Program-made: the position numbers and the translations under genes
In this document: piece by piece, positions 22,762-47,579 of the stretch
Position numbering within the stretch: the stretch's first letter is position 1
Layout: every line of letters begins with the position of its first letter
Notes under the pieces: model-generated
Seen by the model: only the letters and a program-made list of their open reading frames with translations
What the model was told of the DNA's origin: nothing
Databases searched by the model: none
Assembly: GCF_013377905.1 (NCBI RefSeq)
Contig: NZ_JABKAV010000009.1
Coordinates: 1-64,000 of the forward strand
DNA length: 64,000 bases
Direction: 5' to 3'
From: Hymenobacter terrestris
GTDB lineage: Bacteria; Bacteroidota; Bacteroidia; Cytophagales; Hymenobacteraceae

Positions 22762-25700
22762 TTACATATTCCGCCGATACTGCCCGCCGACCTCGAACAG
22801 GGCATTCGTAATCTGGCCGAGCGAGCAGAACTTGACGGTGTCCATTAGCTCCTCGAAGAGGTTGTCGTTGGCCACGGCCACTTGCTGCAGGTGCTTGAGG
22901 CGCGCGGGAGCCTCGGCGGCGTTGCGGGCCTGCAGGGCCTCCAGCATCGTAATCTGGTACTGCTTCTCCTCCTCGGTAGCCCGGATTACCTCGGCGGGTA
23001 TCACCGTGGGCGAGCCCTTGGACGAGAGGAAGGTGTTGACGCCGATAATGGGGTACTCGCCCGTGTGCTTGAGCATCTCGTAGTGCATGCTCTCCTCCTG
23101 AATCTTGCCGCGCTGGTACATGGTTTCCATGGCCCCGAGCACGCCTCCGCGCTCCGTGATGCGGTCGAACTCGGTGAGCACGGCTTCTTCCACCAGGTCG
23201 GTCAGCTCCTCGATGATGAACGAGCCCTGGAGCGGGTTTTCGTTCTTGGCCAGGCCCAGCTCGCGGTTGATGATGAGCTGGATGGCCATGGCCCGGCGCA
23301 CCGATTCTTCGGTGGGCGTGGTAATGGCCTCATCGTAGGCGTTGGTGTGCAGGCTGTTGCAGTTGTCGTAGATGGCGTACAGGGCCTGCAGGGTGGTGCG
23401 GATGTCGTTGAAGTCGATTTCCTGGGCGTGCAGGCTCCGGCCGCTGGTCTGGATGTGGTACTTCAACATCTGCGAGCGGGCGTTGGCGCCGTACTTCAGC
23501 TTCATGGCCTTGGCCCAGATGCGGCGGGCCACCCGGCCAATTACGGCGTACTCGGGGTCGATGCCGTTGGAGAAGAAGAACGAGAGGTTGGGCGCGAAGT
23601 CGTTCACGTCCATGCCCCGGCTCACGTAGTACTCCACAAACGTGAAGCCGTTGCTCAGCGTGAGGGCCAGTTGGGTGATGGGGTTGGCGCCAGCCTCGGC
23701 AATGTGGTAGCCCGAAATCGACACCGAGTAGAAGTTGCGGACCTTCTCGTCGATGAAGTACTGCTGCACGTCGCCCATAAGGCGCAAGGCAAATTCGGTG
23801 GAGAAAATGCAGGTGTTCTGGGCCTGGTCTTCCTTGAGAATGTCGGCCTGCACCGTGCCGCGTACTTGCGTGAGGGTACGGGTTTTGATGCCGGCGTACA
23901 CGTCGGCGGGCAGCACCTGGTCGCCGGTTACGCCGAGCAGCATGAGGCCCAGGCCGTCGTTGCCCTCGGGCAGCGGGCCCTGGTAGTGGGGGCGGGGCTG
24001 GCTGTAGCCTTGGTAGATTTCGTCGATTTTCTGGCTCACCTCATCTTCCAGGCCGTGTTCCTTAATATAGAGCTCGCACTGCTGGTCGATAGCAGCATTC
24101 ATAAAGAAGGCGGCAATGGTAGCGGCCGGCCCATTGATAGTCATGGAAACCGACGTGCTCGGGTTGGCCAGGTTGAAGCCCGAGTAGAGCTTCTTGGCAT
24201 CGTCGAGGCAGGCGATGCTCACGCCGGCATTGCCGATTTTACCGTAGATGTCGGGCCGGTGGTCGGGGTCTTCGCCGTAGAGCGTTACCGAGTCGAAGGC
24301 CGTGCTGAGGCGCTTGGCGGGCAGGCCCATGCTCACGTAATGGAAACGGCGGTTGGTGCGCTCGGGGCCACCTTCGCCGGCAAACATGCGGGTGGGGTCT
24401 TCGCCCTCGCGCTTAAACGGGAACACGCCGGCCGTGTACGGGAACTCGCCGGGCACGTTCTCCTGCAGCTGCCAGCGCAGCAAATCGCCCCAGGCCGTGT
24501 AGCGCGGCAGGCTCACCTTCGGAATCTGGGTGCCCGACAGGCTCTGGGTGTGCGTCTGGAGGCGGAGCTCCTTGTCGCGCACCTTGAACACGAACTCGGG
24601 CGCTTTATAGGCGGCTACCGTTTGCGACCAGTTCTCCAGGAGCTTCCAGTTCTGACCGTCCAGGCGGAGCTTGACCTCCTCGAAGGTGCTCTCCAGGCCG
24701 GCCACGAGTGTTCCGGGCTCGACTCCGGCAGGGCTTGCGCCGCCGCCGCTACCAATTCCTCCGGCACTGTTTCCGGCGAGGCTTTCAACGGCTCCGACGG
24801 CTTGTCGGATTCCATAGAGCTGCTGCGCTGTGGCAGACTGTTTTTGAACCCACTGGTCATACTGGCGGTTGGTTTCGGCTATTTCTGAAAGGTACCGCGT
24901 GCGGTGCGGCGGAATGATGTAAATCTTCTCGGAGTCTTCCACCGAGGTTTCGAGCTTCGAGGCAAAGGCGTGGCCGGTACGCTCCTCCATAGTAGCCAGC
25001 ACGGCGCGGTACAGCCGGTTCATGCCCGGGTCGTTGAACTGCGAGGCAATGGTACCGAACACGGGCATGGTATCGGTCTGCTTGTCCCAGAGGCCGTGGT
25101 TGCGCTGGTACTGCTTGCGCACGTCGCGCAATGCGTCCAAAGCGCCCCGCTTGTCGAACTTGTTGAGGGCAATAACGTCGGCAAAATCGAGCATGTCGAT
25201 TTTCTCCAGCTGGGTGGCCGCGCCGTACTCGGGCGTCATCACGTAGAGGCTGGCGTCGGAGTGCTCGATGATTTCGGTGTCACTCTGCCCGATGCCGGAG
25301 GTCTCCAGGATAATCAGGTCGAAGTCGGCGGCCCGTACCACGTCCACGGCATCCTGCACGTACTTGCTCAGGGCGAGGTTGCTCTGGCGCGTGGCCAAAC
25401 TGCGCATGTACACCCGCGGCGAGTTGATGGCATTCATCCGGATACGGTCGCCGAGCAGCGCCCCGCCCGTCTTGCGCTTGCTGGGGTCGACGGAAATAAT
25501 GGCAATGGTCTTCTCGGGGAAGTCCATCAGAAACCGCCGCACCAACTCATCTACTAACGACGACTTGCCCGCGCCACCCGTGCCGGTGATACCGAGAATG
25601 GGCGTTGCCAGCTTGCCGTCCGTATCGGTAGCAGATGCAGTATCAGCGTTCAGCTTTTTGCTGACCGCTAAGAACTCCTCGGGGAAGTTTTCGGCGGCCG

Positions 25701-26214
25701 AAATCAGGCGGCCGATGTCGCGGGCATTCTTGTCTTTGAGGTGGTCGGCCTCGCCGTTGAGGTTCTGGCCGGTCGGGAAGTCGGCCTGTTCGAGCAGGTC
25801 GTTGATCATGCCCTGCAGGCCCATGGCGCGGCCGTCGTCGGGCGAGTAGATGCGGGTGACGCCGTGGGCCATCAGGTCCTCGATTTCGGAGGGCAGAATC
25901 ACGCCGCCGCCGCCGCCGAAGAGCTTGATGTGGCCCGCGCCACGCTCCTTCAGCAGGTCGTGCATGTACTTGAAGTACTCGTTGTGGCCGCCCTGGTAGG
26001 AGGTAATGGCAATGGCCTGGGCATCCTCCTGAATGGCGCAATCCACGATTTCCTGCACCGAGCGGTTGTGGCCCAGGTGGATCACCTCGGCACCGCTGCT
26101 CTGAATGATGCGGCGCATGATGTTGATGGCGGCATCGTGCCCGTCGAACAGCGCGGCGGCCGTTACAATGCGAACGTGGTTTTTAGGTTTATAAGGCGCT
26201 ACGGGAGCTTGCAT
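22762..26214 (-). CDS. icmF: Fused acyl-CoA mutase with built-in G-protein chaperone (IcmF type)
   Basis: The 1150-residue protein joins all parts of a B12-dependent mutase. A cobalamin-binding domain comes first (about 15-150, motif [12 protein letters not shown] and EVIHLGHN). A MeaB/ArgK-like GTPase follows (about 195-480) with the P-loop GTGGAGKSS and NKFDKRG. A Gly/Ser-rich linker (near 515-535) leads to the large TIM-barrel substrate domain with [12 protein letters not shown] and [11 protein letters not shown]. The Phe in GVFPFKR replaces the Tyr of methylmalonyl-CoA mutase, favouring an IcmF-type substrate such as isobutyryl-CoA/n-butyryl-CoA (family knowledge; substrate not shown). 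The start at 26214 is preferred because the 38 residues encoded upstream look non-coding. It is likely monocistronic. Confidence 0.93.
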
Positions 26215-26248
26215 ATCAAGGGGGGCAGTTGGGTGGGTTTTGGTAGGG

Positions 26249-26256
26249 CTAAGGTA
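26249..26256 (-). promoter_or_regulatory. Candidate promoter box for icmF
   Basis: On the minus strand it reads TACCTTAG, one base from TAnnTTTG, 34 bases before the ATG. Confidence 0.35.
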
Positions 26257-26342
26257 CGAAACAGGCAGCGGGGGCGCGTTGCAAGCGCCCGAAATCTGGG
26301 GCAATACGCAAATGTAGCCGGCCGGCATTCACAGTAGCGCGG

Positions 26343-27166: not shown

Positions 27167-28033
27167 TCACCGCCAACTCTGCACGTTCAAATAAATGCTG
27201 GGCCGGGCGGGGTAGAATTTCCAATTGGCCTGGCTTTTATCACGGGTATATATGCGGTGTAGGGGAGAGGGAAGTAGCGCCGGAACATCGAATGATTGGT
27301 AATTGGGCGTTACTCCCACCGCGTCGAGCCACTGCAGCGCCACCACCACCTTCTGCCCTTTACTGAATTGCAGATTATGCGGCCGCAAATCGACCTTAAT
27401 CCAGCCCCGCTGCCGGTCGGTTAGTACCAGTTGGATGTCTTGGGACAATAGCAGTTCCGCGGGCCGGCCGCCGCGCACGGCGTAAAACAGCAGTCGTAAG
27501 CGTACCTGCCGAAACGGGTTGTACTGTACATACACGTTGAAATCATCCACGTAGCAGTTGCGGGGCGAAGTGAGGAAGGTGCCGAACTCCGAGCCGAGCT
27601 TTTCGCGGCGACGGACACTGTCCTTCACAATGCTGTTCGCGCCCCAATGGGCAACGCCACTAGTGCTTGTTCGGCCCAGTACTTGTGGCCGTAATTGCCG
27701 GTGGCGTACCGTTACCTCGCGCAGCACTTGGGGCTGCGTTTTCAGTTTTATGGTCAAATCTGCCTCCCGCAGCTGTCCGAGCAGCAGCCGGGCCGGTCGG
27801 TAGCCTACACCCGTCACGATGACTGAGTCGGTGGCCGCTAACTCAGGCGAATCAGGAAAGCGGAAGCGGCCCTGCACATCGGCTACGGTACCGGCGGCCT
27901 TGCCCTTCACGCCAATGGAAGCGAAGGGAACCGGCGCAGCAGTGGAATCGGCACGCAGCACACGGCCGCTGAGGGTTTGGGCAGACAGGAGCAGAGGAGA
28001 GCCGCAAAGCAGCTGCAATAGCAGGAGGCGCAT
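27167..28033 (-). CDS. Secreted protein with carboxypeptidase-regulatory-like domain
   Basis: The 288-residue product has a signal peptide (MRLLLLQLLCGSPLLLSAQ). A beta-sandwich of the CarboxypepD_reg-like type follows (about 20-105; LSGRVLRADS, FASIGVKGKAAGTVADVQGRF, TIKLK), and then about 180 residues of beta-rich sequence. In this phylum such domains are common on cell-surface and TonB-dependent proteins, but no barrel or plug is seen here, so it is probably a periplasmic or surface protein of unknown role. The ATG at 28033 was chosen for its signal peptide; the frame upstream (to 28279) looks non-coding. Confidence 0.78.
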   Translation of the reverse strand: MRLLLLQLLCGSPLLLSAQTLSGRVLRADSTAAPVPFASIGVKGKAAGTVADVQGRFRFPDSPELAATDSVIVTGVGYRPARLLLGQLREADLTIKLKTQPQVLREVTVRHRQLRPQVLGRTSTSGVAHWGANSIVKDSVRRREKLGSEFGTFLTSPRNCYVDDFNVYVQYNPFRQVRLRLLFYAVRGGRPAELLLSQDIQLVLTDRQRGWIKVDLRPHNLQFSKGQKVVVALQWLDAVGVTPNYQSFDVPALLPSPLHRIYTRDKSQANWKFYPARPSIYLNVQSWR

Positions 28034-28245
28034 TCCGGAAGTGGGGACGGTACGGCCGGAAGAGGGCAGCAGGGCTATTAAACGTTGCAAGGGGGACGCG
28101 GTAAGCCAAGCATGCTTGCCGAAGCTTTCGTGAATTCCGCGCAAATCCTGCCAGAAATTTCTCTCCCAGCTACTCCATTTTAAATCACCGTACGGTCCCC
28201 AGTTTCGCTTGTCAGGTATGGGATAGTGAAATAACAAGCTACAAA

Positions 28246-28275
28246 AAATGCCCCGACGAATCCGCCAGGGCATTT
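28246..28275 (-). terminator. Terminator of the formaldehyde dehydrogenase gene
   Basis: An 8-bp stem (AAATGCCC at 28246-28253 with GGGCATTT at 28268-28275) is followed by TTT on the minus strand, 21 bp after the stop codon. Confidence 0.65.
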
Positions 28276-28296
28276 CCACTATAAATCGAACTGAGC

Positions 28297-29678: not shown

Positions 29679-30080
29679 CTACTGCAGCGCCTTCATGCCG
29701 GCTTCGGCCACCGTGTGGTCGTTCTCCACCGAGTCGCCCGACACACCGATAGCGCCCACAATTTCATCGCCCTGCTTGAGCGGAATGCCACCGGGGAAGG
29801 TGATGAGGCCACCGTTGGAGTGCTCGATGCCGAAGAGCGAGCCGCCGGGCTGCGAGAGGCCGCCGATATTGCCGGTGGGCATATCGAAGAAGCGGGCCGT
29901 TTTGGCCTTCTTGATGGAGATATCGAGCGAACCGAGCCAAGCGCCGTCCATACGGGCAAATGCCACGAGGTTGGCTCCGGCATCCACCACGGCAATGTTC
30001 ATTTTTACACCCATTTCCTGCGACTTCTGGCGGGCGGCTTCAATAATCTGCTGGGCTTGTTGGAGGTTGATAGAGCTCAT
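29679..30080 (-). CDS. GlcG/HbpS family protein (putative heme- or cofactor-binding)
   Basis: The 133-residue product is a single GlcG/HbpS domain: [19 protein letters not shown] at the N-terminus, the core [42 protein letters not shown] and the final [12 protein letters not shown]. HbpS of Streptomyces binds heme and senses oxidative stress, while GlcG is tied to glycolate genes, so the substrate here is unknown. It has no signal peptide. The ATG at 30080 starts at the domain, whereas the longer frame adds 29 unlikely residues. It stands between the broken GH15 gene and fdhA on the same strand, which gives no firm pathway link. Confidence 0.88.
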
Positions 30081-30242
30081 GAGAACGGGTTTGGTGAGTG
30101 AGGTTGTACGCAGGTATAAGTCGAAAGACGGAAATAGGTTAAATACGAGTTGTTTGACGCGAGCCAAAGGGCCTGCCGCGGCAGACCGGCTAGCTGCGGG
30201 TAAGCGGCGGGGCCGGTCAGGTCTGCGGAGCCGTTGCGGCAG

Positions 30243-32102
30243 CTACACAAAATCGTGCCCCCGGTTGTTGCCGCGGTGGTGGCGGGCGTCGAGGTCGCGG
30301 TTGAGCTGGAAGGCGGCGCTGATGAGGGCCAGGTGGGTGAAGGCCTGCGGGTAGTTGCCGATCTGCGCGCCCTGGGGGCCGATCTGCTCCGAGTACAACC
30401 CCAGCGGACTGGCAAAACCCAATACCTTCTCGAATAGCAGCCGGGCGTTATCCAGGTCGCCGGCCCGCGACAGGTTCTCAATGTACCAGAACGAGCACAT
30501 GGTAAAGGTGCCTTCCTGGCCGGTAAGCCCGTCGGTAGCCCCACCGTCGAGGTGGTAGCGGAACACCAGCGAGTCGACGACCAGTTCCTGCTCTATGGCC
30601 CGCATCGTGGCCTGCCAGCGCGGTTCGGCCGGGCTGAACATGCGGATCAGGGGCAGGGCAATAGAATCGAGCACTTCACCGCCTTTATACTGCACGAAGG
30701 CCTGCTTTTCCTCGTTCCAGAAGTTGTGGTACACCTCCTCGTAAATCTCGTTGCGCACCCGGTGCCAGTCGGCCAGCGGGGCGGGAAACGAGCGGTCCTG
30801 GGCAATGCTGATGGCGCGGTCCAGGGCCACCCAGCACATCATCTTGGCCGACAGAAAGTGCTGTTCCTGGTCGCGCACCTCCCAGATACCGTGGTCGGGC
30901 CGCTGCCAGTTCTCGGCCACGAAATCCACGAGCCGACAGATCTGCTGCCAGAAGGCGTAGGTGATGGCCCCGCCGTACTTATTATAGAGGTAAATCGTGT
31001 CGAGCAACTCCCCATAAATATCAAGCTGGAACTGCTGAGCCGCCCCGTTGCCGATGCGTACGGGCCGCGAGTCGCGGTAGCCGCTCAGGTGCTCCAATTC
31101 CTGCTCGGGCAAATCGGGCGACCCATCTACGCGGTACATGAGCTGGAGGTCGGCGGCATCGGCCAACTGCTCGCACCGGGCCATGATCCAGTGCAGAAAC
31201 GCCTTCGACTCGCCCGTAAAGCCCAGACGCAGGAAGGCGTACATAGTAAAGGCCGCGTCGCGTACCCAGGTAAAGCGGTAGTCCCAGTTGCGGGAGCCGC
31301 CCACGGCCTCGGGCAGCCCGAAAGTGGCGGCGGCTACCGTCGAGCCGTGCTCGAGAGAGGTGAGCAGCTTGAGCGTGATGGCCGAGCGCATCACTATTTC
31401 GCGCCAGCGGCCGGTGTAGGTGCTGCTTTCCACCCACTCACGCCAGAAGCTGAGCGTATCGGCAAAGGCTCCTTCGGTGTAGTGGGCAAGGTCGCGGGCA
31501 ATGAAATCGGGGGCGTCGACGGGCGTGGCCTCCATCACGAAGCTGGCCGTTTCGCCCGCGTGCAGGGTCCAGCTGCCCACCGCGTCGCCGTCGGGGGTTG
31601 CTTCCAGCGGATGGCTGCTCAGGAGCCGGAACTGCAAGTGGGCATCCGCCGTTTCGAGGCCCCGGAACAGCAGGCTGCCGTCGTCCTGGGTTTCCACGCG
31701 GTGGGGGGCGCGGGCATAGTCGAAGCGCGGGGCGCAATTCAGCTGGAATGTGAGGCTGCCCTTAATTACGCGCAGGCTGCGCACCACGGCACAGTTCTGC
31801 TCGTGGCGCTTCACGGGCATGAAATCGGTGAGTTCGGCAATGCCGCCCTCCAGCAGAAACCGCGTCAGCAGCACGCCCGTGTTGGGCAGGTACAGTTGCT
31901 TGGTGCGCACCTCACCTTCGGCCCCGGCCGGCTGAATCGACCAGGAACCACCTTTTTCCGCATCGAGTTAGGCCGCAAAAATGGTGGGCGAATCGAAACG
32001 GGTAAAGGGCAGATAATCGAGCGAGCCGGCCTTCGATACCAAGGCCACGGTGTGCAGGTTGCCAATCAGGCCGTAATCTTCGAGCGGAGTGGTTTGGGAC
32101 AT
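30243..32102 (-). pseudogene. GH15 family glycosidase (glucoamylase/trehalase-like), interrupted by an in-frame stop
   Basis: The full gene would run from the ATG at 32102 to 30243 (about 619 codons). The first 44 codons encode the conserved GH15 N-terminus (PLEDYGLIGNLHTVALVSKAG...RFDSPTIFAA). Codon 45 (31968-31970) is TAA, and the same frame then continues with LDAEKGGSWSIQPAG and the rest of the family: a beta-sandwich domain and the (alpha/alpha)6 barrel with NWDYRFTWVRDAAFT, the general acid region HGIWEVR and the base region SEQIGPQ. Relatives have Leu at this point, as I recall, and TTA to TAA is a single change. It may be a true nonsense mutation, a sequencing error, or a protein restarted near 31910, which would lack the first strands of the sandwich. 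Confidence 0.85.
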
Positions 32103-32273
32103 ATGGAGCAGAAGGAGGGGCGGTGAAGTTGGTTGGCTAGCTCGGTGCTTTGCTAGACGCATACCGCCCTAACAACGCAAATTGAGCTAGGTCCGGCGAG
32201 CCTTTTGGTTGAATTCCGCCGTTCTCTACTGCCGAGCTACTGCCTCGCCGTAGCATATCCCGGCGGCGTTGCG

Positions 32274-32281
32274 TACCTTTG
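32274..32281 (+). promoter_or_regulatory. Promoter box for lepA (TACCTTTG)
   Basis: An exact TAnnTTTG match, 22 bases before the ATG at 32304. Confidence 0.55.
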
Positions 32282-32303
32282 AAGCTAGAAAAAACTGCCC
32301 TCT

Positions 32304-34091
32304 GTGAAGAACATCCGCAATTTCTGCATCATTGCCCACATCGACCACGGCAAAAGCACGCTCGCCGACCGCCTGCTCGAATTCACGAGCACTGTGGCCA
32401 AGCGCGACATGCAGGCTCAGCTGCTCGACAACATGGACCTGGAGCGGGAGCGAGGCATCACTATCAAGAGCCACGCCATTCAGATGCAGTATCCCTACAA
32501 AGGGGAAATCTACACGCTCAACCTGATTGACACTCCTGGCCACGTCGATTTCAGCTACGAAGTAAGCCGCAGTATTGCTGCCTGTGAAGGCGCGCTGCTC
32601 ATCGTCGACGCCTCGCAGGGCATTGAGGCCCAGACGATTTCCAACCTCTACCTCGCCATCGGGGCCGACCTGGAAATCATTCCGGTACTCAACAAAATCG
32701 ACCTGCCCCACGCAATGCCCGAGGAGGTGAGCGACGAAATCGTGGACCTCATCGGCTGCGAGTACGAGGATATTCTGCACGCCTCCGGCAAAACCGGTCT
32801 CGGCATCGAAGGCATCCTCAACGCCATCATTGAGCGGGTACCGGCCCCCAAGGGCGACCCTGAAGCGCCGTTGCAAGCCCTGATTTTCGACTCCGTTTTC
32901 AACTCCTACCGCGGCATCGAAGTACTGTTCCGTATCAAGAACGGCACCATGTGCAAGGGCGACAAGCTCCGCTTTATGGCCACCGGCAAGGAATACGGCG
33001 CTGACGAAATAGGCATTCTGGGCCTCAACCAGGAGCCGCGCCAGGAAATGGGCGCCGGCAACGTGGGTTACCTCATTTCGGGCATCAAGGAAGCCCGCGA
33101 AGTGAAAGTGGGCGACACGATTACCCACGTCGCCAACCCCACCAAGGATGCCATCAAGGGTTTTGCCGATGTAAAACCGATGGTTTTCGCCGGTATCTAT
33201 CCCGTCGATACCACCGAGTACGAGGAGCTGCGCTCGTGCATGGAAAAGCTCCAGCTCAACGACGCCTCCCTGGTCTGGGAGCCCGAAACGTCGGTGGCGC
33301 TGGGCTTCGGCTTCCGCTGCGGCTTTTTGGGCATGCTGCACATGGAAATCGTGCAGGAGCGCCTGGAGCGCGAGTTCAATATGACGGTGATTACCACTGT
33401 GCCCAGTGTGCAGTTCCACGCCACCGGCACCAAAGACCAGCTGCTGACCATCAACGCGCCGAGCGAAATGCCCGAGCCGAACATGATCAAGTACATCGAG
33501 GAGCCCTTCATCAAGGCCCAGATCATCACGGCTGCCGATTACGTGGGTCCCATCATTACGCTCTGCATGGACAAGCGCGGCGTTATCAAAGGCCAAAGCT
33601 ACCTGACTTCCGAGCGGGTGGAGATGACCTTCGAGCTGCCGCTGTCGGAAATCGTATTCGACTTCTTCGACAAGCTGAAAACCATCAGTCGCGGCTACGC
33701 CTCGCTCGACTACGAGCTGATCGGCTTCCGCGAGTCGGATATGGTCAAGCTCGACATCATGCTCAACGGTGAGAAGGTCGATGCGTTGTCGGCCATCGTG
33801 CACCGGAGCAAGAGCTACGAGTGGGGCCGCCGGCTGTGCGAAAAGCTGCGCGAGCTACTGCCTCGCCAGCAGTTCGAAATTGCCATCCAGGCCAGCATTG
33901 GCCAGAAGATCATATCCCGCGAAACGGTGAAAGCCCTGCGCAAAAACGTAATTGCCAAGTGCTACGGCGGCGACATCAGCCGCAAGCGCAAGCTGCTCGA
34001 AAAGCAGAAGGAAGGCAAGAAGCGCATGCGTCAGGTTGGCTCCGTGGAGATACCACAAGAGGCCTTCCTGGCCGTTCTGAAGCTTGACTGA
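32304..34091 (+). CDS. lepA: Elongation factor 4 (LepA), back-translocating GTPase
   Basis: The 595-residue ribosomal GTPase starts with the G1 motif AHIDHGKST and shows RERGITIKS (switch I), DTPGHVDF (G3), NKIDLP (G4) and the EF-2-like middle domains. The C-terminal LepA-specific region has [18 protein letters not shown] and a Lys/Arg-rich tail. Length and domain order are normal. The ATG at 32304 puts the G1 motif at residues 11-19, as in homologues. It has its own promoter box and a strong terminator, so it is probably monocistronic. Confidence 0.97.
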
Positions 34092-46721: not shown

Positions 46722-46754
46722 AGCCGTAAATCAACTCCAGCAACCAACACCCCA

Positions 46755-47579
<825 letters not shown>

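Follow-up and report, generated by a model that had tools for sequence, protein, structure and literature searches.

A GH15 glycosidase gene of Hymenobacter terrestris is, with a probability of about 0.82, a real and very young pseudogene of an accessory enzyme. The gene lies on the minus strand of the 64,000-nucleotide stretch of DNA that we analysed (the window; contig NZ_JABKAV010000009.1, positions 1 to 64,000). Its frame is disrupted by a TAA at codon 45, the orthologues in relatives are open and an additional lesion, a 6-bp deletion, is private to this copy, which are two of the features expected of a pseudogene. The positions referred to below are as follows.

29679–30167, minus strand: gene of an HbpS-like protein, open neighbour (PF03928, E 1.2e-41)
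30243–31967, minus strand: remainder of the GH15 frame, from codon 46 through the final stop (translation; PF00723 match on the ORF 30243–31910)
30387–30389, minus strand: E572 codon, in YSEQIG; the residue is the predicted general base and is identical in all 32 alignment rows
30657/30658, minus strand: junction of the private 6-bp in-frame deletion (DNA alignment of four Hymenobacter genes)
30879–30881, minus strand: E408 codon, in GIWEVR; the residue is the predicted general acid and is identical in all 32 alignment rows
31908–31910, minus strand: GTG codon 65, the earliest potential in-frame restart after the TAA (translation)
31968–31970, minus strand: in-frame TAA, GH15 codon 45 (translation; a sense codon in all of the best 80 of at least 589 relatives)
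31971–32102, minus strand: GH15 codons 1–44, 5' of the stop (translation, alignment)
32103–32303, no strand: divergent intergenic region between the GH15 and lepA-like genes (alignment; largely common to H. amundsenii)
32304–34091, plus strand: open neighbouring gene, which we take from its sequence to be LepA/EF-4-like

The frame from 32102 to 30243 comprises 619 codons, the TAA included. It begins MSQTTPLEDYGLIGN and ends GNNRGHDFV, and codon 45 is its sole interruption: the translation reads MSQTTPLEDYGLIGNLHTVALVSKAGSLDYLPFTRFDSPTIFAA, a stop and LDAEKGGSW, and no further stop occurs in this frame before the terminal one. The ATG at 32102–32100 lines up with the start codon selected in other Hymenobacter, H. 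amundsenii among them, and the sequence on both sides of the TAA aligns with GH15 relatives along the whole length. We read the homologous codon in the best 80 of at least 589 confirmed relatives among the genome contigs, and found Leu in 57, Met in 12, Ile in 10, His in one and a stop in none; in the closest of these relatives it is a Leu codon, one base from TAA. All 80 (again the best of at least 589) were open from near codon 1 across the stretch aligned. Since both flanks align with GH15 and no stop occurs in these 80 relatives, the TAA is more than a chance feature of an open frame, and the stop is real in the assembly. The initial annotation had described a single in-frame TAA at codon 45 with GH15 sequence on both sides, and had given Leu, one base away, for relatives. 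Translation and alignment bear out the former. As to the latter, most of the relatives read, including the nearest ones, have Leu, and the codon one base away is that of the closest.

It is clear from the profile, the predicted fold and two predicted catalytic glutamates that the gene belongs to the GH15 glycoside hydrolases, as had been proposed. The 555-residue ORF scored 226.3 bits against PF00723 (Glyco_hydro_15; cut-off 22, E 8.5e-67) and 22.2 bits against TREH_N, slightly below the cut-off of 23.1. The best NCBIfam matches, covering nearly the whole ORF, were the archaeal trehalases TreH1 and TreH2 (NF041084 and NF041085), but scores of 320 and 252 bits, obtained without residues 1–64, are far under the curated cut-offs of 820 and 1000 bits, and the gene is not assignable to either. 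A sequence search of the solved structures with the ORF gave no match at E 0.001. The read-through protein was modelled with the TAA set as Leu and with 28 sequences. The mean pLDDT was 82.6 and the pTM 0.87, with values below 50 for residues 34–42, which adjoin the stop, and 611–619. The model predicts an N-terminal beta-sandwich followed by a helical (alpha/alpha)6 barrel of the bacterial GH15 type, and the predicted fold resembles dextran dextrinase 9ju0 (Z 36.6, rmsd 3.7, 541 aligned), bacterial glucoamylase 1lf6 (Z 36.2, rmsd 3.3, 531 aligned) and glucodextranase 1ug9 (Z 35.0, rmsd 3.4, 539 aligned). From what is known of the family, E408 is presumably the general acid and E572 the general base. 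The statement for GH15 in general is that of PMC12446779, and bacterial trehalases are reviewed in PMC10969515. The window gene thus shares its profile, its two glutamates and its predicted fold with bacterial two-domain GH15 enzymes, and differs from them by the stop at codon 45 and by a deletion in a barrel helix.

This deletion, at 30657/30658, had not been described in the initial annotation, which regarded all catalytic regions as intact. That view does not hold: E408 and E572 are present, but the barrel has lost two residues at nearly invariant columns. The six base pairs are missing after gene nucleotide 1445, which takes out a conserved pair of residues where 482 now adjoins 483; in the read-through model this point lies among the first residues of helix 480–487. 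Among the best 80 of at least 589 relatives, one of the deleted columns is Leu in all 80 and the other in 77 (Met, Ile and Val occur once each), and none has a gap at either column. The two-residue gap is therefore peculiar to the window protein among the sequences aligned. Four other sequences of the 81 aligned (L116, L110, L109 and L111) have their own gaps elsewhere, so having a private gap is not in itself exceptional. The relatives' DNA at the site contains a short repeat of period 6, as judged by eye, so the deletion probably arose by replication slippage; it could in principle also be an assembly slip in the short repeat.

We compared the window with two close relatives, H. amundsenii CCM 8682 (G007, L037) and Hymenobacter sp. 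ISL-91 (G026, L038). The H. amundsenii orthologue is 97% identical in amino acids across the read-through frame and its neighbours are collinear; unlike the window gene, it is wholly open and lacks the 6-bp deletion. Thirty-five window genes were tabulated (one interval, 46754–47579, is not a whole number of codons), of which 29 were comparable with both relatives, and private in-frame deletions were found in two of the 29, the GH15 gene and a gene at 22762–26328. The latter encodes a fused B12-binding, MeaB and methylmalonyl-CoA-mutase-type protein, which we take to be IcmF-like, and its deletion removes four residues near residue 481 of the compared stretch.

We also considered that the TAA might be a sequencing or assembly error in a gene that encodes the full-length enzyme. 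The source assembly is a draft (4.18 Mb in 179 contigs, 99.98% complete), the stop concerns a single codon and the remainder of the gene is under strong purifying selection, all of which would suit such an error. When ORFs of the two relatives were compared with the window over the contig up to about 62.4 kb, an internal stop was flagged in 10 of 49 from Hymenobacter sp. ISL-91 and in 6 of 42 from H. amundsenii, the GH15 gene accounting for one row in each set; in a few of the compared rows the coverage was low or the match involved a second frame. We judged the other flagged rows, by their stop positions and the ORF tables, to be opposite-strand ORFs, over-extended starts and short intergenic ORFs. 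In our judgement GH15 is the only truly broken gene among the 49 and 42 ORFs compared over about 62 kb, and widespread local assembly errors were rejected on this ground. The local error rate thus seems low, and in addition the TAA lies outside any homopolymer. A base-call error is disfavoured because two private disruptive lesions, the second at nearly invariant columns, would have to coincide in the one gene judged broken in this stretch, and we consider it unlikely. A search of plasmids returned 84 records with similar DNA, the best from Hymenobacter volaticus at 68.5% identity, and was uninformative on the stop.

The same comparison showed that the segment 18700–34400 of the window is nearer to H. 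amundsenii in every 1-kb bin except the one at 28,000, mostly with 89–96% DNA identity per kb, and that both of its flanks are nearer to Hymenobacter sp. ISL-91 (83–94% versus 73–88%). This suggests a mosaic ancestry, in which the GH15 gene would lie on a recombined segment some 16 kb long. Within it, the stretch around 27167–28279, which encodes a CarboxypepD_reg domain protein, had no match longer than 500 bases in the contigs of either relative.

To return to the GH15 gene as a young pseudogene, its age was estimated from the substitutions. The dN/dS against H. amundsenii was 0.047, within the range of 0.009 to 0.225 of nine other genes measured. By parsimony, 9 nonsynonymous and 48 synonymous changes fell on the window branch and 12 and 63 on the H. 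amundsenii branch, so that no raised nonsynonymous rate was found on the window branch relative to its sister; this is the expected result if the loss was very recent. An absence of constraint over 5% of the branch predicts 16 nonsynonymous changes (probability of nine or fewer, 0.04), and one over 10% predicts 23 (0.0008); without a constrained baseline the probability was 0.076 for 10% and 0.0013 for 15% of the branch. These counts suggest that constraint was lost within roughly the last 5–10% of the window branch, about 5% with the baseline and about 10% without it. At the protein level, with columns that contain gaps or in which all three sequences differ omitted, six replacements could be placed on the window branch and nine on that of H. 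amundsenii. Those on the window branch are mostly mild, and K552N introduces a residue absent from all of the best 80 of at least 589 relatives. Outside the two lesions the gene has no sign of decay and its remainder looks fully constrained. The substitutions alone would fit a very recent loss and continuing constraint equally well, and it is the presence of two lesions that makes a very recent loss the more likely. Of the initial suggestion that the stop is recent or an error, the first part is supported by the branch substitution counts, and the second is the weaker option in view of the second lesion.

Another reading is that an N-terminally truncated protein is still made by internal initiation, either at the GTG of codon 65 or at the earliest in-frame ATG, codon 95 (31818–31820, minus strand). 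The statement that such a product would be without the first 64 residues was correct, as the 555 codons of the downstream open frame begin with GTG 31910. A purine-rich stretch 5' of this GTG can be recognised by eye and the downstream codons look constrained, although constraint older than the stop says nothing about the present. Residues 1–64 hold four predicted strands in the model (10–14, 19–23, 27–30 and 53–58) together with eight residues that do not vary among 32 rows (G11, G14, L21, D37, F42, D47, G51 and G52), all of which would be lost. Together with the deletion in the barrel helix, which the truncated product would still carry, and with the frames of relatives that are open from near codon 1 (80 of the best 80 of at least 589), this makes a functional restart improbable.

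Readthrough of the TAA, through leaky termination or a suppressor tRNA, would restore a full-length protein, and the conservation of the frame on both sides of the stop is what such a mechanism would require. The tRNA genes found with the Rfam model numbered 43; all have sense anticodons and none reads UAA. An extra tRNA-Ala in L159, found by ARAGORN only, has a sense anticodon too. The tRNA set of this draft genome seems incomplete, since none of the 43 genes was labelled tRNA-Ile by ARAGORN; no suppressor occurs among those found, and one in unassembled DNA would be conceivable. Programmed readthrough or recoding is unlikely on the same count, and also because no relative among the best 80 of at least 589 has a stop here. 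Taken as a whole, we regard readthrough as highly improbable.

If the gene has been lost, the loss may be tolerated, since another gene of the family remains. The genome contains a second GH15 gene, which is open over 594 codons and 32% identical to the broken copy. This intact paralogue adjoins a gene which, from its sequence, we assume to be an OtsA/OtsB-type fusion; a transposase-like ORF (L174, 2231–3013; recognised by eye from the translation) lies just upstream of the latter. A GH37 trehalase (PF01204) was not found in the genome. When 36 further genomes of the genus were searched, the broken gene had a close homologue in seven, six at 77–96% and one at 64% identity, whereas a paralogue-type match, assigned by an identity of about 30–33%, was present in 32, including all seven carriers of the homologue. 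Because a close homologue occurs in seven of the 36, we infer that the broken gene is accessory.

We also looked at stops in the GH15 genes of other genomes. Three further members of the genus (G004, G020 and G021) were initially flagged for a stop or split, and G052, outside the genus, for a stop. In G004 (L173, C1:3406300–3409200) a paralogue-type GH15 gene is split between two frames and may be broken or misassembled; the stop in G020, at alignment residue 619, was taken as the natural end, and on inspection the alignments of G021 and G052 had no stop. Recurrent loss of GH15 genes is thus not shown by these four genomes, where the one split concerns a gene of the paralogue type. Our literature search for glycoside hydrolase pseudogenes in Hymenobacter found no report.

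It seems likely, then, that the gene was until recently that of a GH15-type glucosidase built from a beta-sandwich at the N-terminus and a helical barrel at the C-terminus, and that two mutations followed: a nonsense change at codon 45 and the 6-bp deletion, through which a barrel helix has lost two residues at its start. If translated from the normal start, the gene would now give a peptide of 44 residues, and a restart at codon 65 or 95 would yield a protein without conserved strands of the N-terminal domain and with the helix deletion retained, so activity has probably been lost. The loss may have been tolerated with the enzyme being accessory and the intact paralogue kept. Two disruptive lesions in a gene with almost no neutral substitutions as yet would also fit an inactivation that was selected and not merely tolerated, a reading which we consider quite doubtful.

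For the annotation of such genomes the case has a practical side, as a pipeline could start at GTG 31910 and call an enzyme of 555 residues, despite the damage to a barrel helix and the omission of 64 preceding codons that are part of the gene. The general picture of GH15 enzymes and of translation is unchanged, and what we describe is ordinary gene loss in progress. It is a clean example, in which a gene has apparently been caught just after its inactivation, with open orthologues in closely related bacteria and a paralogue retained.
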